From: an uncultured Lachnospiraceae bacterium
GTDB taxonomy: Bacteria; Bacillota; Clostridia; Lachnospirales; Lachnospiraceae
DNA length: 47,189 bases
Assembly: GCA_944384105.1 (NCBI GenBank)
Contig: CALWSC010000069.1
Span: 1 to 47,189, forward strand
Reading direction: 5' to 3'
Shown here: positions 2 to 10,609 of the stretch, piece after piece
Position numbering within the stretch: position 1 is the first letter of the stretch
How the letters are laid out: each line of letters starts with the position of its first letter
The notes under the pieces: model-generated
Database searches by the model: none
Told to the model about the DNA's origin: nothing
What the model saw: the letters and a program-made list of their open reading frames with translations, nothing else
Position numbers and translations under genes: made by a program

Positions 2-2257
2 GCACTTGATACCGAGACGAGTATTCAGGTTATGGAGCTTCTAAAGGAAGTCGCAAAAGACCGCCTTGTCATCATGGTAACGCATAACCCGGATCTGGCA
101 GAACGCTATGCCACCCGTATCGTTCGCCTGAGCGACGGTGAGATTACGGACGACAGTGATCCGTACAGCCTGGACGAAAAGAGCCTTGCCCCGGCAGAGC
201 ATAAGAACATGGGCAAATCATCCATGAGTTTTCGCACAGCCCTGGCGCTGAGCTTTAACAACCTGCGAACGAAGAAGGGAAGAACATTTCTGACCGCATT
301 TGCAGGCTCGATCGGAATTATCGGCATCTCGCTGATCCTGGCACTCTCAAGCGGCGTGGACACTTATATCGAGGATATCCAGAGAGAGACGATGACTTCC
401 TATCCGATCACAATCGATGCACAGACGCTTGATTTAAGCAGCATTATGGAAAATGTCACAGCCGGTCATACAAAAAAAGATGCCGGTCACAGTCTCGACG
501 GCGTTTACGCAGACAGTGCAGCACTCGAGATGGCAAATCAGATCACGACGAGCGTCACGGAGAACAATCTGACCGAATTCAGAAAGTACCTTGATGATGC
601 GAACAGCGAAATCCGCCAGTACCTTGGCGAAAACGGCGTGATTTACTCCTACGACGTGCCGTTTTCCGTATACGCCAGAAATGAAGAGGGTGAGTTTCAG
701 GACACTGCGGACAATGGAATGGGAAATACAGAGGATATGTATGCTTCCTCCGGTATGTCCCAGGAAGTGCAGCAGGGGATGATGAACACGATGTCCTCCT
801 GGATGGATTCTGCAGGAGGCTTTGCAATGTACAATAACAGTGTATTTGACGAGATGCTTCCGGGAGCGGACGGCGAGCTTGTGAGCGCAGTGACGAAGGA
901 CAGTTATGACGTTGTGGCGGGAGATTATCCGAAGCAGTACGATGAGGTCGTGCTGGTGCTTGATGAAAAAAATGAGATTTCCACTACCATGCTGTACTCC
1001 CTTGGAATGATTCCCAAGGAGGATTACAGCGCGATGCTTGAGGCAATCAACAGCGGGGAGGAATTTGAAGCAAAAGAGTACTCCTGGAGTTATGATGAGC
1101 TGCTTGGCAGGAACTTCTGGCTTGTGCCCGCATGCGAATACTATGAGGACAACGGCGATGGTACCTGGAGTTATATCGGCGATGACCCGATAAAGAGAGA
1201 AAAACGCGCAGAAAACGGCATCCCTCTGACAGTTTCCGGGATCATCCGCCCGAAGGAGGATGCGAAGAACGCAACTATCTCAGGAGCGGTGGGATATACG
1301 AATGCATTAACCGACTATTTAATTGATTATGCGGATGAAAGCCCGGTGGTTCTGGCTCAGCAGAGCAGTCCGGACGTGAATATTCTGACCGGTATGGGAT
1401 TTGAGCCGGGGACAGAAGAAGAGAAGATCGAAGATACCAGGACCTATATTCAGAAACTTGGAATCTCAGGAAAGGCGGCGCTCTGGAAGAGCCTGGCGGG
1501 CGCCATGTATTCCGGAGATGAGGCGGCATATCAGCAGATGGCCGCAATGGACGAGACACAGCTTGCAGCGATGCTGGATCAGTATATGACAAATCCGGAT
1601 AACGAGGTTCTGCTTTCAATCTACGATAACTATATCTCTGCCGGAAGCTATGACGACAATATGACAGCCTTTGGCTTTGTGAGCAGAGAAGCGCCGTCGT
1701 CCATCAGCATATATGCGGATACGTTTGAAGATAAAGACAAGATTGCAGAGTGCATTACGAACTATAACGAGAAAACAGAAGCGGAAAATCAGATCACATA
1801 TACGGACTTTGTGGCCATGATGACCTTTTCAATCACTACAATTATTGATGTGATTTCCTACGTATTGATCGCGTTTGTGGCAGTATCGCTCGTGGTATCC
1901 TCGATCATGATCGGAATCATCACTTACGTCTCTGTTCTGGAGAGAACAAAGGAAATTGGTATCCTGCGTGCAATCGGAGCCTCTAAGCATAATATTTCTC
2001 AGGTATTCAATGCGGAAACCGTGATTATTGGACTGTGCGCCGGAGCACTCGGCGTTGGAATCGCCGCGCTTTTGACCATACCGATCAATGCAGTTATCCA
2101 CAATCTGATCGGAAACAGTGATGTCAATGCGTATATACCCGCGGTGAGCGCTTTGATTCTGGTGATTTTAAGTACAATTCTCACCCTGATCGGCGGACTG
2201 ATTCCCGCGAAGAAGGCAGCGAGAAAGGATCCTGTAAAGGCTTTGAGAACAGAATAA
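2..2257 (+). CDS. ABC transporter ATP-binding/permease fusion (MacB/FtsX type), 5'-truncated by window edge
   Basis: This is the 3' part of an ABC exporter-like protein in which the ATPase is fused to the permease; 751 codons remain. The reading frame is open from base 2, so the start lies outside the window. The first residues are the D-loop (ALDTETS), followed by the H-loop (MVTHNP), so Walker A, signature and Walker B are upstream. A first membrane helix follows at about bases 280-350. Next come about 500 extracellular residues rich in Asp, Glu and Tyr, then three helices near the C-terminus with the FtsX/MacB signature (ERTKEIGILRAIGAS) and the usual end (IPAKKAARKDPVKALR). This four-helix layout with a large outer domain is that of MacB/FtsX mechanotransmission transporters, which move peptides or lipoproteins or respond to antimicrobials. 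The substrate cannot be told. A hairpin terminator follows directly. Confidence 0.9.
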   Translation, partial: ALDTETSIQVMELLKEVAKDRLVIMVTHNPDLAERYATRIVRLSDGEITDDSDPYSLDEKSLAPAEHKNMGKSSMSFRTALALSFNNLRTKKGRTFLTAFAGSIGIIGISLILALSSGVDTYIEDIQRETMTSYPITIDAQTLDLSSIMENVTAGHTKKDAGHSLDGVYADSAALEMANQITTSVTENNLTEFRKYLDDANSEIRQYLGENGVIYSYDVPFSVYARNEEGEFQDTADNGMGNTEDMYASSGMSQEVQQGMMNTMSSWMDSAGGFAMYNNSVFDEMLPGADGELVSAVTKDSYDVVAGDYPKQYDEVVLVLDEKNEISTTMLYSLGMIPKEDYSAMLEAINSGEEFEAKEYSWSYDELLGRNFWLVPACEYYEDNGDGTWSYIGDDPIKREKRAENGIPLTVSGIIRPKEDAKNATISGAVGYTNALTDYLIDYADESPVVLAQQSSPDVNILTGMGFEPGTEEEKIEDTRTYIQKLGISGKAALWKSLAGAMYSGDEAAYQQMAAMDETQLAAMLDQYMTNPDNEVLLSIYDNYISAGSYDDNMTAFGFVSREAPSSISIYADTFEDKDKIAECITNYNEKTEAENQITYTDFVAMMTFSITTIIDVISYVLIAFVAVSLVVSSIMIGIITYVSVLERTKEIGILRAIGASKHNISQVFNAETVIIGLCAGALGVGIAALLTIPINAVIHNLIGNSDVNAYIPAVSALILVILSTILTLIGGLIPAKKAARKDPVKALRTE

Positions 2258-2269
2258 AGAAAGACAAAT

Positions 2270-2308
2270 ATGCAGCCGGAAGCGCATCCCGGCTGCATTT
2301 GCCTTTTT
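2270..2308 (+). terminator. Intrinsic terminator after the ABC transporter
   Basis: A perfect 10-bp stem (ATGCAGCCGG, 2270-2279, with CCGGCTGCAT, 2289-2298) has a 9-nt loop and is followed by a T-rich stretch ending near 2308. It starts 13 bases after the stop codon. Confidence 0.85.
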
Positions 2309-2315
2309 ATGCCCC

Positions 2316-2345
2316 TTGTAAAGATACATCATTGTAGTGTATAAT
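2316..2345 (+). promoter_or_regulatory. Sigma-A promoter of the DUF5717 operon
   Basis: TTGTAA (2316-2321), an 18-bp spacer and a perfect TATAAT (2340-2345) lie 51 bp before the GTG start at 2396. This is the only good match between the terminator and the gene. Confidence 0.65.
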
Positions 2346-2395
2346 CTAATGATAATGAGAAAATTTACATACACTGACAAGAAAAGGATAAGCAG

Positions 2396-5300
2396 GTGAA
2401 CGATTTGAAGAGAAGAATGGAACAGCTTGTCAACGGAAGATTTGAATTCGAGGTTCCGCCTCTGACTCTGTCCGTCCGGGAAGTGCATCTGACGACCGGT
2501 GCGGGGGAGAATATAAGAGATGAATTTTATATCGGCGCTAAGAACGGACGGAGGGTCAAGGGTGTGCTTTCGACTACGAACCGCAGAATTGTGCTCGGCA
2601 GAGACAAGTTCTCCGGAGACGTGGTGGGAATTCCCTACGGCATTGACGTTGCGGGACTTGGTGAGGGAGACACGGTTAAGGGCAGTATTGTCATCCAGAG
2701 CGATCTCGGAGAGCAGTATATTCCTGTGACAGTAGATATACAGTCTGACAATGTGCGCAGCTCTTTCGGCGAGGTGCATACGCTCGGAGACTTTGCGCAG
2801 CTTGCCCAGAAGGACTACAGAGAGGCATTTTATCTGTTTACAAGCGAGAAGTTTACGAGTCTGTTAAGAGGAGAGGATGCCTGCCGCGCGGCGCTGTACC
2901 GCGGCATGTCGAAAAATCCCGTAACCTACCAGCACATGGAGGAGTTTTTGATCGCTGCCGGAAAGAAAGAGCCGGTAAAGCTCGAGATCCGCAAAAAGGG
3001 CAGGGCGTCTTACCGTCTGGAGCGTTCCATGAAGGATACGCTTGCGATCTCGCGAAGTACCTGGGGATATGTGCGCGCGGAGGTAGAAATCTGCGGCGAC
3101 TTTCTCGAGGTCGAGAAGCGTGTTATCACATCCGAGGATTTCATCGGCAGCGTGTTCGGACTGGAATACATTGTGCGAAGAGAAAAGATAGGCGCAGGGC
3201 GTCACTACGGAAAGATTATTCTTCGGACAGTCTGCCAAACCCTGGAGTATGAAATAGAGGCTTCGATTGACAATGGAATTCAGGAGGTGCGCGGCTATCT
3301 TGCCAGCCATCTGAAGGTGGATATGGCGCAGGACTACTTGGCACTCTGCCTCGGAAAGATGGATCAGCAGGAGTGGGGACGCCGTACAGCCGCAAATTTG
3401 AAGCAGTTTGAGGAGAGCGGCAGCAAAGAAATCCTGATGGATCTGTATGCGGCATATGCGGCGTATAAGCAGGGGGAGTCGTACCGCGCGCTTGAGCTCC
3501 TGTTCCCGTACCGAGACTATGAATTCGGTCCCGGTGAAGAGGAAGAGCAGGGCGTTTATCTGTATCTGGCAAAATATACGGAGCTTCTTCCGGTTGAGAA
3601 GCGGGATATTTCCGTAAGGCTTTATTCTCTGCAGAAGCGCCGCCCGGATTCCTTCCTGCTGCTGACGCTCCTTCTGACGGAAGATGAGGAATTTAAGAAT
3701 TCTCCGGCAAAGCAGCTTTACCGAATGGAAAAGCTCTTTGAGATCGGCGGTACAAGCCCGTTTCTCTATCTGGCAGCGTGCGAGATTCTGATACAGGATG
3801 ACGGGATGCTCTGCAAACTGTCCGAATTCATGATCCAGGTGCTTCGCTTCGCGCTGCGCCATGATATTTTGACGAAAGCGCTTGTGGAACGGGCAGCATA
3901 TCTGTCGGGGCATGAAAAGACATTCCGCCGGTCGCTTTATCGTCTGCTGGCAGGAGGATATGAGAAGTTCGGCGGCAACGATGTACTCGAGGCGGTCTGC
4001 CGCCTGATTATGCTCGGCCATCCTACAGACCGGGAATATTTCAAGTGGTACGCGCTGGCTGTTGAGAAGGAGCTGCGCCTGACACGGCTGTATGAATACT
4101 ATATTGAGACGATGGGCGAAGACTTCAGCGGTGTGCTGCCGCAGGTTATCCGCATGTACTTTGCGTATAATAATACGATCGGAAATAAGAAGCGTGCGTT
4201 TATCTACGCGAACGTCATCCGCAACAGGGAAGTCGACCGCACGACATACATGAACTACAAAAAACCGATGGAGCAGTTTGCCAGAGAACAGCTCAAAAAG
4301 CGCAGGATGAACGAGGACTATGCAGTGATTTACCAGGAGTGCATTCCGCAGCTTACAGACGCGGCAGCTGCGGATGCGATGGCGGATGTGATGTTCGTTC
4401 ACCGCCTGACCTGCCATGACAGAAATATCCGCAGAGTCATTGTCTGCCACGAGGCGCTCCAAAGCGAAGCGTCGTACCCGTGCGTGGACGGTACGGCATA
4501 TATTTCGCTTTATACGCCGCAGGCGCAGATCCTCTTTGAGGACGAGAAGCGCCGCCGTTTTGCCTCCACCGTTCCGTATAAGGTGGAAAAGCTGATGGAC
4601 ACCGGTGAATATGTGAAGGCGTGCGCAGCGCTCGATGTGGATAACTTCGGATTTCAGCTTCATCTGTGCGGGGAGAGTGATATGAAAGTCGGTATCCGCA
4701 GCCTCAATGCATTCCGCAGCGCTTCGGAGAACGAGGCTTTTACAGAACAGTACCGTCAGAAACTGCGCCGCTGCCTGCTTGACTACTATGCAGCGCACGC
4801 CGGCGAAGATATGCTCGACGAATATCTGGCAAAGCTGGACTGCGAGGCATTTGCCCGCGTGGACAAGGCAGCGCTTGTGGAGATTCTCATTGACCGCAGG
4901 ATGTATGCCCAGGCTTTTCAGATTATCTGCGACTACGGCTATGAGAATATCCGCATCGGCTCCCTGCTGCGCCTGTGCAGCCGTCAGATCCTGAACCTGG
5001 AGTATGAGGAAAATGAAGAGCTTGTCTATCTGGCGCACTATATATTTTCGCAGGGAAAATACGACGAGGTGATTCTGACTTATCTGCGCGACCACTTTGC
5101 AGGACCGGTGGAGGAGATGTGCGCTGTCTGGGAGCGCGTCAAGGGCTTCGGGCTGGAGAGCTACTATCTGGATGAGCGGATTTTGGTGTACTCCATGTTC
5201 GTGAGAAGATATCCAAAGCAGGGGGCAAAGATTCTGGAGAGCTATGTGAGCCAGCAGGGCAGAGAGCTTGTCATTATGGCGTATCTGACATTTGAAGCGT

Positions 5301-5944
5301 GCGGCTATTTCATGGGGGCGCATATGCCAGAGCCTGTGATTTTTGAGTTTCTTGAGGCTGTGTACGACAGAGAGTGGGAAATGGATCAGATCTGCCGGCT
5401 CGCTCTCTTAAAGCACGACGCGTCGCTTGAGAAGCTCACGGAAAAGCAGGAGAATCAGGCAGGGAAACTGCTGGAAGAGTTTATTCAGAAGAATCTGCGG
5501 TTTGCATTTTATCAGAATCTGCCGGCACAGCTTATCAAGGCGTATCAGCTCGAGGATAAGATATTTGTGGAGGAGAAGCTGCCGGCTGCGGCGCGCGTTA
5601 CGATTCACTACCGTATGGAGCGCCAGGGTGAGCCGGTGCAGGAGTACAAGAGTGAGCCAATGAAAAATATGTACCAGGGTATCTTCGGAAAAGAGTTTCT
5701 GCTCTTCTACGGGGAGACGCTGCGCTACCGCATGACTGTGGAGGTCGGAGAGGACAGCTATGACACTGAGGAGAAGAACGTGACCCTGCAGGAAATTTCC
5801 ACATCCGGAGAGAGCCGCTATCAGCTCTTAAATCAGATGCTCTGCGCCTGTGCAATGGGGCAGGAAGACGATCTGCAGCGCGCGATGCAGCGGTATCTGA
5901 TGCAGGAGAAGCTCACAGAAAACGTATTCTCTATCCTCGACTGA
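2396..5944 (+). CDS. DUF5717-family large protein: beta-sandwich domains plus helical solenoid
   Basis: An 1182-residue protein with no enzymatic motif that I recognise; it matches my recollection of DUF5717, a Clostridia family of unknown function. Residues ~10-120 read as an Ig-like beta-sandwich, with an LSTTNRRIVL strand and later an 'extra-Gly' strand ending IPVTVDI. A second similar unit spans ~190-300. Residues ~300-1050 are almost wholly helical with spaced Leu/Tyr/Ala, like a TPR/SEL-type solenoid. Residues ~1045-1140 look beta-rich again. There is no signal peptide or membrane segment, so it is probably cytoplasmic. The start is GTG with a weak Shine-Dalgarno (aggataag); an in-frame ATG at 2417 is an alternative. 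It is co-directional with the Hsp70-like gene (19-nt gap) and the TPR gene, suggesting one complex. The family call is from memory; the domain reading is inference from sequence. Confidence 0.75.
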   Translation: MNDLKRRMEQLVNGRFEFEVPPLTLSVREVHLTTGAGENIRDEFYIGAKNGRRVKGVLSTTNRRIVLGRDKFSGDVVGIPYGIDVAGLGEGDTVKGSIVIQSDLGEQYIPVTVDIQSDNVRSSFGEVHTLGDFAQLAQKDYREAFYLFTSEKFTSLLRGEDACRAALYRGMSKNPVTYQHMEEFLIAAGKKEPVKLEIRKKGRASYRLERSMKDTLAISRSTWGYVRAEVEICGDFLEVEKRVITSEDFIGSVFGLEYIVRREKIGAGRHYGKIILRTVCQTLEYEIEASIDNGIQEVRGYLASHLKVDMAQDYLALCLGKMDQQEWGRRTAANLKQFEESGSKEILMDLYAAYAAYKQGESYRALELLFPYRDYEFGPGEEEEQGVYLYLAKYTELLPVEKRDISVRLYSLQKRRPDSFLLLTLLLTEDEEFKNSPAKQLYRMEKLFEIGGTSPFLYLAACEILIQDDGMLCKLSEFMIQVLRFALRHDILTKALVERAAYLSGHEKTFRRSLYRLLAGGYEKFGGNDVLEAVCRLIMLGHPTDREYFKWYALAVEKELRLTRLYEYYIETMGEDFSGVLPQVIRMYFAYNNTIGNKKRAFIYANVIRNREVDRTTYMNYKKPMEQFAREQLKKRRMNEDYAVIYQECIPQLTDAAAADAMADVMFVHRLTCHDRNIRRVIVCHEALQSEASYPCVDGTAYISLYTPQAQILFEDEKRRRFASTVPYKVEKLMDTGEYVKACAALDVDNFGFQLHLCGESDMKVGIRSLNAFRSASENEAFTEQYRQKLRRCLLDYYAAHAGEDMLDEYLAKLDCEAFARVDKAALVEILIDRRMYAQAFQIICDYGYENIRIGSLLRLCSRQILNLEYEENEELVYLAHYIFSQGKYDEVILTYLRDHFAGPVEEMCAVWERVKGFGLESYYLDERILVYSMFVRRYPKQGAKILESYVSQQGRELVIMAYLTFEACGYFMGAHMPEPVIFEFLEAVYDREWEMDQICRLALLKHDASLEKLTEKQENQAGKLLEEFIQKNLRFAFYQNLPAQLIKAYQLEDKIFVEEKLPAAARVTIHYRMERQGEPVQEYKSEPMKNMYQGIFGKEFLLFYGETLRYRMTVEVGEDSYDTEEKNVTLQEISTSGESRYQLLNQMLCACAMGQEDDLQRAMQRYLMQEKLTENVFSILD

Positions 5945-5963
5945 CGGGAGGCGAAGATAAGCA

Positions 5964-7208
5964 ATGGAAAAGAGAAACATTATAGCAGGATTTGAACTGG
6001 GAGAAAGGACGTCCCAGATTACAATATATGACAGAAAAGAGAACAAAGCCGCCTGTGTCCCGGTCAAGATCGGGGGAAGCGACAGTGAATTTGCCTCGGC
6101 GCTCAGCCGCAGGGAGGACGGCGGACCGTGGCACTTCGGCCGCGAGGCGGAATACTTCGCAGCACAGCAGCAGGAAGTCCTGATTGACAATCTGTATGCA
6201 TTGTGCAAAGACAATAAGGATACGGAGATCGGTACAGACAGATATCCGGCGTCGTACCTTCTGACCGTATTTCTGCGGGAAGCTCTGCGCCTTGCAGGCA
6301 TCAGCGAGCCGTCGCTGGAACTTTCAGCGCTGATGGTGACTGTGCCGGGAATCACCAGAGAACTTGTTGAAAATATGCGGATTGCATTTCAGGAGCTTGG
6401 AATTTCCAGGGGAAGAGGATTTCTGCAGGATTACGATGAAAGCTTCTATTATTATACGCTCTACCAGCGCCCGGACATCTGGAGCCGCAAGGTTGGTATG
6501 TTTCTGTTCGAGGACAGGGAGGTATCATTTAAGAGCCTGGACATGAACGATAAGACACGTCCCGTACTCGTCAGCGTCGGTCAGGGAGAGCACATCACAC
6601 TGCCGGAGGATCCCCGCGAGAAGGACAGCGCTTTTCAGGCTATGATCGATCGAGTATTCGGGGATGATGTCTACTCCTCCGTATTCCTGATGGGAGACGG
6701 CTTCTCCCGCGACTGGGCAAAGAAATCGGTGCTGCTGCTGTGCCGCCACCGCCGCCACGTATTTATGGGCAATAACCTCTATGTAAAGGGCGCGTGCTAC
6801 GCGGCCAAGGAAAAGATTGAGGAGCGGATGCTGAAGGGATATCTCTTCGTCAGCCGCGATCTCGTAAGGCACAATATCGGTATGGATATGACAGTAAACG
6901 GAAGCAGCACATACTACCTTCTGATACCCGCGGGCATCAACTGGTATGAGGCAGTGCGGGATGTGGATATATTGCTGAACGGGGAAAGAGATCTTGCGTT
7001 CTCTGTCAGCAGTATGGACGACGGTACGAGAAACCGCTACAGTATGGAGCTTCCGGGGCTTCCCCAGAGACCGGACAAGGCGACAAGGCTGCACCTGCAT
7101 CTCGAGTACATTTCCCCGGAGGAGTGTACGATCGAGGTCACAGACGAGGGCTTTGGAGAACTGTTTCCATCCAGCGGGCTTACCTGGAAGGAAACTATGA
7201 GAGGATAA
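5964..7208 (+). CDS. DUF5716-family protein, probable degenerate Hsp70/actin-fold ATPase
   Basis: A 414-residue protein of a Lachnospiraceae family (DUF5716, from memory). Read by eye it follows the DnaK plan. Residues 9-23 (GFELGERTSQITIYD) align with DnaK phosphate-1 (GIDLGTTNSCVAIMD), with Glu for the Mg-binding Asp. Residues 125-130 (VTVPGI) and 157-160 (YDES) match the 'ITVPA...NEPTAA' region. Residues 177-190 sit where DLGGGT should be, but that motif is lost. Residues 242-251 (LMGDGFSRDW) and 273-281 (YVKGACYAA) match the adenosine motif and the 'VAxGAA' helix. Residues ~290-402 look beta-rich, where Hsp70 has its substrate-binding domain. The missing phosphate-2 glycines suggest weak or no ATPase activity. 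It has a good RBS (gggaggcgaagataagca, ATG). Its neighbours suggest a partnership with the solenoid and TPR proteins. The fold is inference; no function is demonstrated. Confidence 0.75.
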   Translation: MEKRNIIAGFELGERTSQITIYDRKENKAACVPVKIGGSDSEFASALSRREDGGPWHFGREAEYFAAQQQEVLIDNLYALCKDNKDTEIGTDRYPASYLLTVFLREALRLAGISEPSLELSALMVTVPGITRELVENMRIAFQELGISRGRGFLQDYDESFYYYTLYQRPDIWSRKVGMFLFEDREVSFKSLDMNDKTRPVLVSVGQGEHITLPEDPREKDSAFQAMIDRVFGDDVYSSVFLMGDGFSRDWAKKSVLLLCRHRRHVFMGNNLYVKGACYAAKEKIEERMLKGYLFVSRDLVRHNIGMDMTVNGSSTYYLLIPAGINWYEAVRDVDILLNGERDLAFSVSSMDDGTRNRYSMELPGLPQRPDKATRLHLHLEYISPEECTIEVTDEGFGELFPSSGLTWKETMRG

Positions 7209-7218
7209 GGAGAGAAAA

Positions 7219-8082
7219 ATGAGCGGATACATTTTATGTCAGGTGGAAAAGGCGAAATCGCCTTACTATATAGAAAATATCAGCGTGAATATCTACTCCA
7301 TAGAGGAACTCTGCTTTTATCTTCGGCACAACATCTATCTGCTGGACGAGACGATCATCAACGAGGAACTCTGCCGCTGGATACGCGACGAGCTGAAATT
7401 AAAGAGACTGTATCAGAAGCTCTACGCGATTCTCGATAAGGAGCACGCAGTCGGAGACTTCATTCTTCCGATCTTCAAGGAGATCAACTATCTCTCCCTC
7501 GCGGAATTCCGCGAAATGAACGAGAAGCTTCAGCAGTTTGCCGAACAGCCGGAAATCGTTCGACGCAAGAAAAAGGCCGATTATCTCTATGAGAACGGCA
7601 AATTTGTCAATGCCGTGAAGGTATACAAAAAGACGCTGGAACTGCGGCAAGAGCTTCTGAAATCCGGCGAGAGCCCGGACAACCTCGGCGTGCAGTTTGT
7701 GGGCAGCATCTACAACAATATGGGATGCGCCTACGGCAGGATGTTTCAGATGGAAGAGGCGATGGAGTGCTTTCAGAAGGCCAATGATATGCTCGGCTCT
7801 GAGGCGTCGCAGAGAAGTCTCCTTTACGCGTGCTGGATGTCACGCTCCCAGGAGGAATATGAGAAATTTGCAGATTCGCTGAATACCGGTGAGAAAATCC
7901 GCCGCCAGGTGGAGGACACCATCGCCGATGCCCGCCGCGACAGCAGCGGCACCGAAGCAGCGGCAGAGTATGAGAAGGTACAGGAAATCTATAAAAAGGA
8001 CGGCGGACAGGCGGGAAAAGAAGCGATGAGAAAACTGCTTGAGAGCTGGACAGCCAAGTATCATAGACAGACAGGATATTAA
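7219..8082 (+). CDS. TPR-repeat protein, third gene of the DUF5717/DUF5716 operon
   Basis: A 287-residue soluble protein. The N-terminal ~110 residues are a helical domain that I do not recognise (many Leu/Tyr/Glu). Two tetratricopeptide-like repeats follow at ~115-148 (ADYLYENGKFVNAVKVYKKTL) and ~162-192 (IYNNMGCAYGRMFQMEEAM). The C-terminal ~90 residues are charged and helical, probably coiled coil. It starts 10 nt after the DUF5716 stop with a strong RBS (aaggagag), and a terminator follows its stop, so it closes the operon. TPR proteins often serve as Hsp70 co-factors, which fits the Hsp70-like neighbour, but no specific Hsp70-binding clamp can be assigned from the sequence alone. Confidence 0.8.
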   Translation: MSGYILCQVEKAKSPYYIENISVNIYSIEELCFYLRHNIYLLDETIINEELCRWIRDELKLKRLYQKLYAILDKEHAVGDFILPIFKEINYLSLAEFREMNEKLQQFAEQPEIVRRKKKADYLYENGKFVNAVKVYKKTLELRQELLKSGESPDNLGVQFVGSIYNNMGCAYGRMFQMEEAMECFQKANDMLGSEASQRSLLYACWMSRSQEEYEKFADSLNTGEKIRRQVEDTIADARRDSSGTEAAAEYEKVQEIYKKDGGQAGKEAMRKLLESWTAKYHRQTGY

Positions 8083-8093
8083 ATATATTCGCG

Positions 8094-8131
8094 ATAAAGC
8101 CGGAAATCAGAAGATAGATTTCCGGCTTTAT
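8094..8131 (+). terminator. Intrinsic terminator of the DUF5717 operon
   Basis: A perfect 15-bp stem pairs 8094-8108 with 8117-8131 around an 8-nt loop. The 3' arm ends in TTTAT and A/T-rich bases follow. It lies 11 bases after the TPR gene stop. Confidence 0.85.
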
Positions 8132-8173
8132 CTATGCAGCCTTAAAAATACTTCGAGGATATGCACATTTTGG

Positions 8174-8202
8174 TTGACAGATATATTTTAGTGTGATAAA
8201 GT
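8174..8202 (+). promoter_or_regulatory. Promoter of the amino acid ABC importer
   Basis: A perfect TTGACA (8174-8179), a 17-bp spacer and a TGa-TAAAGT extended -10 (8194-8202). The start codon is 45 bp downstream, with RBS cggaggg. Confidence 0.75.
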
Positions 8203-8247
8203 GATACCATGTCATAAAGAAGAAAAAGTAAATCGGAGGGAGTATAT

Positions 8248-9114
8248 ATGAAAAGGAAAGTATTTGCAATGTTTTTATCATCTGTGCTTGCCGTTGCTAT
8301 GTTTGCCGGCTGTGGATCGGAGGAGAAGAAGGACAGTACGGCAGATACGGGCAGCAGTTCTCAGACCAGTTCGGATGACGGGGAGCGTGCAGCAGCGGAT
8401 ACGACATACGGCACTGCCGAGGAGGGCAAGTTTGTCGTTGGGTTTGACCAGGAGTTTCCGCCTATGGGATTTGTGGATGAGAACGGCGGATATACGGGCT
8501 TTGACCTGGAGCTTGCCGAGGAGGTGGCAAAGCGCCTGGATCTGGAGTTTGTGGCGCAGCCGATTGCGTGGGACGCAAAGGATATGGAGCTGTCTTCGGG
8601 AACGATTGACTGTATCTGGAACGGTTTTACAATGACAGGCAGAGAGGAAGATTACACATTCTCAGAGCCGTATCTGAATAACCGACAGGTATTTGTGGTG
8701 AATGAGAATTCGGATATTCAGTCCGCAGCCGATCTGGCCGGAAAGATTGTGGAGGTGCAGGCGGATTCCGCAGCAGAAGCGGCGCTTAATGAGAATACAG
8801 AGCTTTCTTCCGCATTTACGATGCAGGCGGTACCGGATTATAATACTGCCATGATGGATCTGGAGCAGGGCGCGGTTGACGCGATCGCGATGGATGAGGT
8901 GGTTGCCTCTTATCAGATCACTTCCCGCGGCAGCAAGTTCCGCGTGCTGGACGAGGAAATTTCATCCGAGGAGTATGCAATCGGTTTTCTGAAGGGGAAC
9001 GACAAGCTGAAAGAGAGCGTGGAAGGCGCGCTTCAGGAGATGGCGGACGATGGAACGCTTGCGAAGGTTTCGGAGGAGTGGTTCGGGTCTGATATTACCA
9101 CATTTGGAAAGTAA
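8248..9114 (+). CDS. Amino acid ABC transporter substrate-binding lipoprotein
   Basis: A 288-residue extracellular lipoprotein of the SBP_bac_3 family, which captures polar amino acids for the importer encoded downstream. It has a signal peptide with the lipobox FAGC near residue 22, then a Ser/Thr/Asp-rich linker to ~60. The mature domain starts VVGFDQEFPPMGF and has the family hallmarks GFDLELAEEVAKRL, DCIWNGFTMTGRE and ADLAGKIVEVQADSAAE. The pattern is that of cystine/glutamine/arginine-type binding proteins; the ligand cannot be fixed by eye. It is first of three co-directional genes (binding protein, permease, ATPase). The 76-nt gap to the permease carries a stable hairpin without a U-tract, which may keep the binding protein in excess. 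Confidence 0.93.
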   Translation: MKRKVFAMFLSSVLAVAMFAGCGSEEKKDSTADTGSSSQTSSDDGERAAADTTYGTAEEGKFVVGFDQEFPPMGFVDENGGYTGFDLELAEEVAKRLDLEFVAQPIAWDAKDMELSSGTIDCIWNGFTMTGREEDYTFSEPYLNNRQVFVVNENSDIQSAADLAGKIVEVQADSAAEAALNENTELSSAFTMQAVPDYNTAMMDLEQGAVDAIAMDEVVASYQITSRGSKFRVLDEEISSEEYAIGFLKGNDKLKESVEGALQEMADDGTLAKVSEEWFGSDITTFGK

Positions 9115-9132
9115 GAAAATACAGTGAACTGC

Positions 9133-9164
9133 AGCGGGCGTCCGGTGATTCCGGGCGACCCGCT
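9133..9164 (+). other. Intercistronic hairpin between binding protein and permease
   Basis: Bases 9133-9145 and 9151-9164 form a GC-rich 13-bp stem with one bulged A, one G-U pair and a 5-nt loop (tgatt). No T-run follows (taaaatggg). It fits an mRNA-stability or partial-termination element that lowers permease/ATPase levels relative to the binding protein; this is inference. Confidence 0.6.
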
Positions 9165-9190
9165 AAAATGGGCTTTAGGAGGTTTTTGGG

Positions 9191-9841
9191 ATGTCGCTGA
9201 TTGATATTTTTCAGCATCTGCTGCCGGGTATCGGCAAGACGATAGGAATTTTCGTCTGTACGCTGGTCTTTTCGATGCCGCTGGGACTGATTGTGGCGTT
9301 CGGAAGGATGTCGAAATACTTTGTTTTGAGAAATGTGGTAAAGATTTATATTTCCGTGATGCGCGGTACGCCGCTGATGCTGCAACTGATGGTAGTGTAT
9401 TTTGGACCGTATTTCATTTTTCGGATTCAGATCAGCAGCTCGTACAGACTGTATGCGGTGCTGATTGCGTTTGCGCTGAATTATGCCGCGTATTTTGCGG
9501 AGATTTACAGAGGCGGTATCGAGTCTATGCCGCAGGGGCAGTATGAGGCGGCGCAGCTTCTAGGATACGGGAAAGGGCAGACGTTTTTTAAAATTATTCT
9601 GCCGCAGGTGATGAAGCGGATTTTGCCGTCTGTGACAAATGAGGTCATCACACTGGTGAAGGATACGTCGCTGGCGTTTTCCATCGCTTATACGGAGATG
9701 TTTACTATGGCAAAGGCGCTGGCGTCCTCGCAGACGAGCGTGCTGCCGTTTGTGGCTGCCGGTATTTTTTATTATGTGTTTAACCTTCTTGTGGCAGTGG
9801 TCATGGAGAAGCTGGAGAAGAAGTTATCTTATTATCGTTAG
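9191..9841 (+). CDS. Amino acid ABC transporter permease (His/Glu/Gln/Arg family)
   Basis: A 216-residue integral membrane subunit, the usual length for this family. Hydrophobic helices lie near residues 15-40, 55-80, 85-105 and 185-205. The HisM/GlnP hallmarks are present: VMRGTPLMLQLMVVYFG near residue 57, NYAAYFAEIYRGGIESMPQGQYEAA near 97, and the EAA-loop region ending in IILPQVMKRILPSVTNE. The RBS (taggagg) is well placed before the ATG. It is translated just ahead of the ATPase (12-nt gap), with which it forms the importer core as a homodimer. Confidence 0.93.
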   Translation: MSLIDIFQHLLPGIGKTIGIFVCTLVFSMPLGLIVAFGRMSKYFVLRNVVKIYISVMRGTPLMLQLMVVYFGPYFIFRIQISSSYRLYAVLIAFALNYAAYFAEIYRGGIESMPQGQYEAAQLLGYGKGQTFFKIILPQVMKRILPSVTNEVITLVKDTSLAFSIAYTEMFTMAKALASSQTSVLPFVAAGIFYYVFNLLVAVVMEKLEKKLSYYR

Positions 9842-9853
9842 GAGTTAGTAGAA

Positions 9854-10609
9854 ATGCTGTTGAAAATGAATCATATCAGGAAGAGCTTTAACGGTGTGGA
9901 TGTGCTGAGGGATATTTCACTGTCTGTAGAGCAGGGAGAGATCGTGTCTATCATCGGCCCGTCCGGTTCGGGAAAGTCCACGCTGCTGCGGTGCGCCACG
10001 ATGCTGGAGACGATTGACGGCGGGGAAATCGCATACATGGGGGAGAAGGCAGTGTGGGTAGAGAACGAAAAGCCTATCTTCGCAAAAAAGGATAAAATGA
10101 AGGAGATACGCTCGTGTTTTGGGCTGGTGTTTCAGAACTTTAATCTCTTTCCGCATTACAGCGTGATGCAGAATATCACAGATGCGCCGATTCACGTTCA
10201 GAAGCGAAAAAAAGACGAGGTCTTTGAGGAGGCGAGAGAGCTTCTTCGCAAGATGGGGCTTTCCGACAAGGAGAGTGCTTATCCCTGGCAGCTTTCCGGA
10301 GGCCAGTGCCAGCGCGTAGCCATCGCAAGAGCGCTGGCGCTGAACCCGAAGATTCTGTTTTTCGACGAGCCGACCTCCGCGCTGGATCCGGAGCTGACCG
10401 GTGAGGTGCTCAAGGTCATTCGATCCCTGGCAGATCTGGATATCACCATGGTGATTGTCACCCACGAGATGAATTTCGCGAGGGACATATCGGATCGTGT
10501 CATTTTTATGGATGGCGGCGTGATCGCTCTGGAAGGAAGCCCGGAGGAGGTCTTTGGGGCAGAGCATGTCAGAATGAAGGAGTTTTTGGGAAGATTTCAT
10601 GGAAAGTGA
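9854..10609 (+). CDS. Amino acid ABC transporter ATP-binding protein
   Basis: A 251-residue ATPase of the GlnQ/HisP type that powers the adjacent permease. Walker A is GPSGSGKST (residues 35-43), the Q-loop is [10 protein letters not shown] (91-100), the signature is LSGGQ (146-150), Walker B is ILFFDE (166-171), followed by the D-loop SALDPE and the H-loop VTHEM. A ~20-residue insert after residue 60 ([13 protein letters not shown]) is lineage-typical. It is the last gene of the operon. No convincing terminator follows, only a weak CGCGT/ACGCG hairpin near 10695-10711. Confidence 0.95.

Follow-up and report, generated by a model that had tools for sequence, protein, structure and literature searches.

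Positions 1 to 47,189 of contig CALWSC010000069.1 from an uncultured Lachnospiraceae bacterium, a stretch of 47,189 nucleotides in the following called the window, contain three closely spaced genes, here named A, B and C, with 19 bases between A and B and 10 bases between B and C, and their coordinates (Table 1) are exactly those given for three open reading frames in a first-pass annotation made by a model from the DNA letters. According to Pfam, protein A is a DUF5717 protein (DUF5717_N with an E-value of 1.9e-254 and DUF5717 with 2e-97; PF18984 and PF18983, above the curated cut-off), protein B is a member of DUF5716 (PF18980; DUF5716_C, 4.7e-102, with 341.4 bits against a curated cut-off of 34.7) and protein C is a tetratricopeptide repeat (TPR) protein (TPR_10, 6.4e-8), and none of the three has an above-cut-off match in NCBIfam. 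A and B are each present in a single copy in the window's assembly. B descends from a degenerate Hsp70 of about 500 residues belonging to an eight-gene operon, and compared with DnaK it keeps the frame of the nucleotide binding domain (NBD) and the β-part of the substrate binding domain (SBD-beta), yet is without subdomain IIB, the phosphate-2 loop, Lys70 and the lid.

Both fold and descent place B in the Hsp70 superfamily, since an NBD frame is followed by SBD-beta and profiles link B to a parent that itself matches PF00012. The Hsp70 motif order perceived in the first-pass annotation is indeed real, in the alignments as well as in the predicted fold, whose top structural matches are Hsp70s, and of the two outcomes which that annotation had named as contradicting it, an unrelated fold and genes that do not co-occur, neither was observed. 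In the PDB, the single B sequence found nothing useful, and it took the profile of the B family to obtain a weak match to DnaK. Other actin-fold families (MreB, FtsA or a ParM-like filament) were considered for B and set aside, since SBD-beta is present and the top matches are Hsp70s, although a second look leaves others possible.

B is nonetheless no canonical Hsp70. It has no PF00012 match at an E-value of 1, its phosphate-1 reads G-F-E-L-G-E-R-T-S where the canonical motif is G-I-D-L-G-T-T-N-S and keeps the frame alone, and the phosphate-2 motif D-L-G-G-G-T, the disappearance of which had been noticed previously and is borne out by the alignment, is absent in the window together with Lys70. 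Subdomain IIB is likewise missing, residues 199-280 of the organism's own DnaK being skipped in a clean gap between B214 (DnaK198) and B215 (DnaK281), and neither the conserved hydrophobic linker nor the alpha lid is seen by eye in the alignment, B stopping after SBD-beta. The replacement of the Mg-binding Asp by Glu, pointed out in the first-pass annotation, is true of the window but is a minority state, since 51 of 70 aligned B rows have Asp at the position, 18 have Glu and one has Gln. These rows, which also served for the fold prediction of B, are the window and 69 of a set of 80 loci from named genomes (the best 80 of 509 relatives). The further notion of nucleotide binding without hydrolysis is unsupported in view of the loss from the window's B of the phosphate-2 loop, Lys70 and the entire IIB, which makes up one wall of the nucleotide cleft.

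The larger context of B is found in other families of the order. DUF5716_C matches occur in 71 of 146 genomes of the order (66 above the curated cut-off), 15 of which are from the window's family, no family genome being among the misses shown, and 56 from the 131 genomes of other families, where there are mostly two matches in neighbouring frames of ~500-550 residues. In 19 of these 56, selected by us and in some cases cut by contig ends, the stretch was analysed, and the order of genes is DUF5717 N-part (~400 aa), DUF5717 solenoid (~900), Hsp70 (~560), GrpE-domain protein (~560-640), the degenerate Hsp70 that is the parent of B (~500), Hsp70 (~546), Hsp70-VWA (~690) and TPR (~390). All eight are separate frames in 9 of the 19 stretches (the first gene is cut by the stretch start in L068 and L076), and the remaining 10 stretches hold part of the set or show fusion (L072) or split frames (L062). 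The gene models of the operon were built from these same loci and score highly by construction, whereas the Pfam matches are independent of them, and in the L071 operon these are GrpE (2.4e-12), HSP70 in three proteins (1.1e-71, 2.2e-60 and 3.4e-93) and VWA_4 (6.2e-10), with no Pfam match to a J-domain. The system is found in Lachnospiraceae, as the first-pass annotation had it, but its origin is wider, the operon there descending from one that is found in other families; this larger operon, the loss of IIB and a fourth gene D had all been overlooked. Small frames also occur between the operon genes in some of the order's stretches, and eight scanned from L063, L066 and L067 (of which L063:15646 lies beyond the TPR gene) comprise Uma2, two metallo-β-lactamases, hemerythrin, a phosphorylase, a Dam methylase, an S41 peptidase and one without a family, in which we see no functional theme; L065, L074 and L079 hold similar extra frames.

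The descent of B was followed in an Hsp70 alignment of 91 rows, among them 49 of the three other operon Hsp70s, 19 parents and 21 family B rows. In a tree of 59 of these rows, made by a quick method and assessed by the Shimodaira-Hasegawa-like approximate likelihood ratio test only, a starred branch of 100 parts all B and parent rows from the other Hsp70s and DnaK, and the B rows form one group (96, starred), which the parent of L062 joins (98, starred). D-[LF]-G-G-G-T, G-I-D-x-G-T-T-N-S and the Lys70 region are conserved with hardly an exception in the 49 rows of the other operon Hsp70s. Among the 19 parents the phosphate-2 loop is degraded (Asp in 18, the first Gly in 15, the rest changed) and a common Lys70 is not seen, with residues still spanning IIB. 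As for the family B rows, a gap falls on EAAEK in every one of the 21 and on the GGDDFD of IIB in 12-20 of them.

Four of the eight genes have been lost from the operon in the window's family, namely all three Hsp70s with ATPase competence and the gene for GrpE, and the halves of DUF5717 are joined in a single gene. In 100 family stretches (the 80 loci and 20 others) the models for GrpE, the first Hsp70 and Hsp70-VWA gave no match at an E-value of 1e-5; each of these stretches has one Hsp70-type frame, B, and Pfam finds among A-C neither the J-protein nor the GrpE partner of a DnaK-DnaJ-GrpE system. Genome-wide there are 2-5 PF00012 matches in 8 family genomes against 8-12 in 5 order relatives, counts in which one protein can yield two matches and in which the family frames, named by size, are mostly of DnaK or MreB size. 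According to the available part of PMC10825016, IIB holds part of the GrpE contact, and exchange factors rotate IIB to free the nucleotide. We read the disappearance of GrpE and that of IIB as a single event, which would be the end of the nucleotide cycle. L062 (genome G152), the nearest order relative with the large operon, has a parent of 494 residues grouping with the B rows of the family and a short GrpE frame of 279 aa, as would be expected of an intermediate. In the same locus (L062:4205-7384) the Hsp70-VWA and TPR genes are each split in two frames, for which decay and assembly error are both possible.

The reduced operon is kept by nearly the whole of the window's family. Among 150 Lachnospiraceae genomes, the window's included, DUF5716_C and DUF5717 are each found in 145 and A and B together in 144, four (G029, G091, G098 and G128) having neither, G020 only B and G146 only A, and 14 control genomes gave no match to DUF5716_C or DUF5717. 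The conservation of gene order, a check proposed in the first-pass annotation, is furthermore evident from the 80 loci, which include Blautia wexlerae, Blautia schinkii and Fusicatenibacter saccharivorans: C follows B in all 80, and in 79 B is preceded by A on the same strand, in some of them as a piece cut at the contig end, and in the sole miss B begins 118 bases from the contig end. In 299 genomes of the phylum PF18983 gave five matches (the window, three of its family and one weak match below the cut-off) and, in a sample of the same kind and size, the A900 profile gave four (the window and three of its family). A search of 291 genomes of the class with the parent profile matched G741 only, at a strict E-value limit of 1e-30 and with at most five candidates scored in the genomes shown; even family members went unmatched, and the search says little on absence. 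A gene that looks valyl-tRNA-synthetase-like in sequence lies within 9 of 20 family and 2 of 19 order stretches, and this neighbour fits vertical inheritance in place. A 538-aa protein with a zinc-ribbon-like start by eye (L045:3047, with relatives in L047, L048, L049 and L056) is found in 5 of the 20 family stretches.

The ratio of nonsynonymous to synonymous substitution rates (dN/dS, NG86) relative to the closest relative, L091, whose proteins are 89-90% identical, is 0.056 for A, 0.038 for B and 0.048 for C, values that are rough, coming from a single pair with dS above 1. In B 32 positions are at least 95% conserved over the 70 rows and spread across the NBD frame and SBD-beta, and they include E159-S160-F161, W251, G276-A277, R369-P370, D394 and G396-F397-G398. 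The former nucleotide side has new invariant residues of its own, a pattern suggestive of a surface put to another use and not of decay.

Protein A is predicted to contain two PapD/ASH-like immunoglobulin (Ig) domains, a helical solenoid and a C-terminal β-rich part (Table 1), in a model with a predicted local distance difference test (pLDDT) of 88.3 and a predicted template modelling score (pTM) of 0.63 (AF2, from a fold alignment of 45 rows, 44 of the 80 loci plus one), in which the placement of domains is unsure. The Ig domains match HYDIN, CEP192, MSP and PapD-type chaperones (Foldseek, VIA), which we take as a shared Ig fold only and not as a relationship of A to ciliary HYDIN/CEP192/SPD-2 or to PapD-type proteins; TM-scores by query do not exceed 0.18 in the Foldseek rows shown for A, which say little on the whole protein. 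A 385-aa frame in L081, considered as part of an A split into 385 and 853 residues, is not A.

An association of B with C is suggested by their occurrence as a single frame of 690-727 residues in 5 of 145 family genomes, both domains being confirmed in the fused L042-L046; these stretches were chosen for frame length, and the fair count is 5 of 145 and not 5 of 20. The fusion is also found in one of the 80 loci (L144), and on a tree of 40 rows (21 family loci, 16 of the 80 loci, 2 parents and the window) three changes are required to account for it, and starred branches make two of these unavoidable. Such gene fusion is better evidence of association than the classic pairing of Hsp70 with a TPR partner invoked in the first-pass annotation. 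That is a weak analogy, as the eukaryotic pairing uses a C-terminal EEVD and B ends in WKETMRG. A fourth gene, D, which lies directly 3' of the TPR gene in several stretches (Table 1), encodes ~390 residues with, by eye, two membrane-helix-like stretches between charged coiled-coil-like halves and has no consistent Pfam family. Of 120 family genomes 52 have D: in 51 it lies 748-1259 bases 3' of the DUF5716 match, with contig and strand in common, and in G092 it is on a different contig. Two of the order relatives, L062 and L078, also have D adjoining the TPR gene.

Table 1. Features of the A-B-C locus and of gene D. Positions are those of the window unless preceded by a locus name; ranges of residues are protein positions.
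Feature	Position	Strand	Description
Gene A	2396-5944	+	GTG start, 1182 aa; open reading frames and Pfam DUF5717
Gene B	5964-7208	+	414 aa; degenerate Hsp70, DUF5716
Gene C	7219-8082	+	287 aa; TPR protein by Pfam
B, NBD frame	residues ~4-297		Actin-like, without subdomain IIB; predicted structure, alignment
B, SBD-beta	residues ~298-414		No lid; predicted structure, alignment
B, site of missing IIB	6594-6611	+	~residues 211-216; ~82 DnaK residues absent
A, predicted Ig domains	residues ~22-117, ~192-294		PapD/ASH-like
A, predicted helical solenoid	residues ~298-1050		Small beta insert 668-732
A, predicted C-terminal part	residues ~1055-1130		Beta-rich
Promoter-like site 5' of A	2316-2345	+	TTGTAA-18-TATAAT; weak evidence
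Hairpin 3' of C	8093-8132	+	Perfect 16-bp stem, 8-base loop, no T-run; by eye
Gene D	L053:11753-12937		Directly 3' of TPR gene
Gene D	L061:11758-12945		Directly 3' of TPR gene
Gene D	L062:3099-4238		Directly 3' of TPR gene
Gene D	L078:3692-4852		Directly 3' of TPR gene

The operon had also been credited with its own promoter and terminator. A candidate promoter is present 5' of A, but with 10 promoter-like sites in 2150-8350 against 5.1 +/- 2.4 in shuffles it is suggestive only. For the terminator a hairpin is seen by eye 3' of C, but it has no T-run and is not among the sites listed by a terminator scan of 2150-8350, where such sites are at chance level (6 against 5.3 +/- 2.4 in shuffles). 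Genes resembling an amino-acid ABC transporter by eye follow 3' of the operon at 8248-10609 of the window, and 5 of 20 family stretches (L050, L051, L054, L058 and L061) have genes of this kind downstream.

The reading we favour, and hold to be reasonably probable, is that an ancestral multi-Hsp70 machine has been reduced to the core A-B-C, in which B is a nucleotide-free adaptor. B would no longer run a nucleotide cycle and would instead be a rigid adaptor, the NBD remnant possibly serving as a docking platform for A and C and SBD-beta binding a peptide or a partner segment; A, with its Ig domains and solenoid, would be the scaffold and C a TPR arm of a stable A-B-C complex, which D may tether to the membrane in a good part of the family. 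The task is probably to hold or assemble a specific protein complex. To the fuller picture of a near-universal machine on a nucleotide-free Hsp70 core, pared down from a four-Hsp70 operon with GrpE, with a ~1200-residue scaffold, a TPR arm and in a good part a membrane hook, and with the coupled loss of the GrpE gene and IIB marking abandonment of the cycle, we give an even chance. Several points weigh against these interpretations. The phosphate-1 position is acidic (Asp or Glu) in 69 of 70 rows, a G-x-G-F loop persists at the adenosine-II position of B, and the phosphate-2 Asp column is still Asp in 11 of 21 family rows, the window not among them, and some ligand could still occupy the cleft. 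Past the EAAEK columns 16 of the 21 family rows carry residues aligned into IIB columns, and the loss of IIB is, as far as the alignment indicates, cleanest in the window's B and its near kin. The tree has long branches, of which the program warns as prone to joining, and its deep placements are unsure. Finally, D is absent in 68 of the 120 family genomes, including the window's and that of a congener, and its membrane helices are read by eye.

B could alternatively be a nucleotide-binding, non-hydrolysing switch like yeast Ssz1, with ATP fixing its shape for partners, and the predicted fold of B is indeed close to that of Ssz1 and of Hsp110/Sse1, divergent Hsp70s which work in stable complexes. 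Such a switch is made unlikely by the fact that the window's B is without IIB, phosphate-2 and Lys70, while the Ssz1 NBD chain 4gni_B, of 384 residues numbered 12-402 over the match, is taken as complete. Ssz1 pairs with a J-protein, and A and C have no J-domain match in Pfam. A shade less probable is that A-B-C regulates or co-chaperones the housekeeping DnaK, for example in the manner of Hsp110, as a factor for exchange or holding, since Hsp110 proteins retain a full ATP-bound NBD, in contrast to a B without IIB, and since there is no Pfam match to a J-protein or exchange-factor family in A or C.

We likewise doubt, somewhat more strongly, that the operon is an anti-phage conflict system or a remnant of one, akin to those GTPase systems of the GAP1-N2 kind in which HSP70, GrpE and TPR/FNIII proteins occur. 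One GAP1-N2 theme, in the part of PMC7159879 available, has a similar part list, and a TerD-linked cluster of three Hsp70s (L175) occurs in another clostridial order. It should also be mentioned that in PADLOC two of the large operon's Hsp70s hit the candidate family PDC-M61B over partial length (4.4e-10 and 2.4e-7) and C hits PbeC (3.7e-4), findings which count against our own reading, but we take these matches to reflect shared Hsp70 and repeat sequence, and PADLOC has no match for A or B. Furthermore, Pfam finds no GTPase, effector or protease family in the eight L071 proteins, and the operon is single copy and near-universal in the family, unlike typical defence islands, which are patchy in distribution. 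That the genes are a decaying relic without function, as the disappearance of catalytic motifs and of half the eight genes might suggest, is disfavoured and barely credible, given that A and B are each kept in 145 of 150 genomes, that dN/dS is ~0.04-0.06 and that 32 B residues are at least 95% conserved over 70 rows.

Taken as the reduced core of a multi-Hsp70 machine, A-B-C provides an evolutionary identity for two DUF families that almost every sampled genome of this dominant gut family retains, and the operon becomes a testable case of an Hsp70 that shed its nucleotide engine. As the order holds the full eight-gene operon beside the reduced form, the stepwise loss of a chaperone cycle is directly open to study. 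To our knowledge there are few, if any, studied examples of pseudo-Hsp70s outside eukaryotes. The Pfam descriptions of DUF5716_C and DUF5717 give no function and no Hsp70 link, the latter being made in the present analysis; no description of DUF5717 or of the operon was found in the open-licence PMC papers searched, and the word DUF5716 was met in one paper, in its available part as an unrelated motif match in human MAX (PMC8115291). The nearest literature theme is that of the GAP1-N2 systems, operons which likewise join HSP70, GrpE and a repeat protein (PMC7159879, in whose available part the words DUF5716 and DUF5717 do not occur), but here there are four Hsp70-type genes and a DUF5717 scaffold, near-universal in one family, and no GTPase family is found by Pfam in A-C or the eight L071 proteins, the loci scanned. 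The cluster at L175:2092-11804 (G741, another order of the class), where three Hsp70 genes, among which lies a 476-aa gene without a match, come after TerD, TerC and a TerD/vWA-TerF-like gene, resembles the operon in its row of three Hsp70s and a nearby VWA gene, but it lies beside TerD and TerC genes, the operon models found no DUF5717 gene in the stretch, and it is a different multi-Hsp70 cluster. Ssz1 and Hsp110/Sse1 differ from B in their complete NBD, and DnaK in having the IIB, phosphate-2, Lys70, hydrophobic linker, lid and PF00012 match that the window's B is without; DnaK/Hsp70 (PF00012) nevertheless provides the best structural matches of B, with which it shares the succession of an actin-like NBD frame and SBD-beta.
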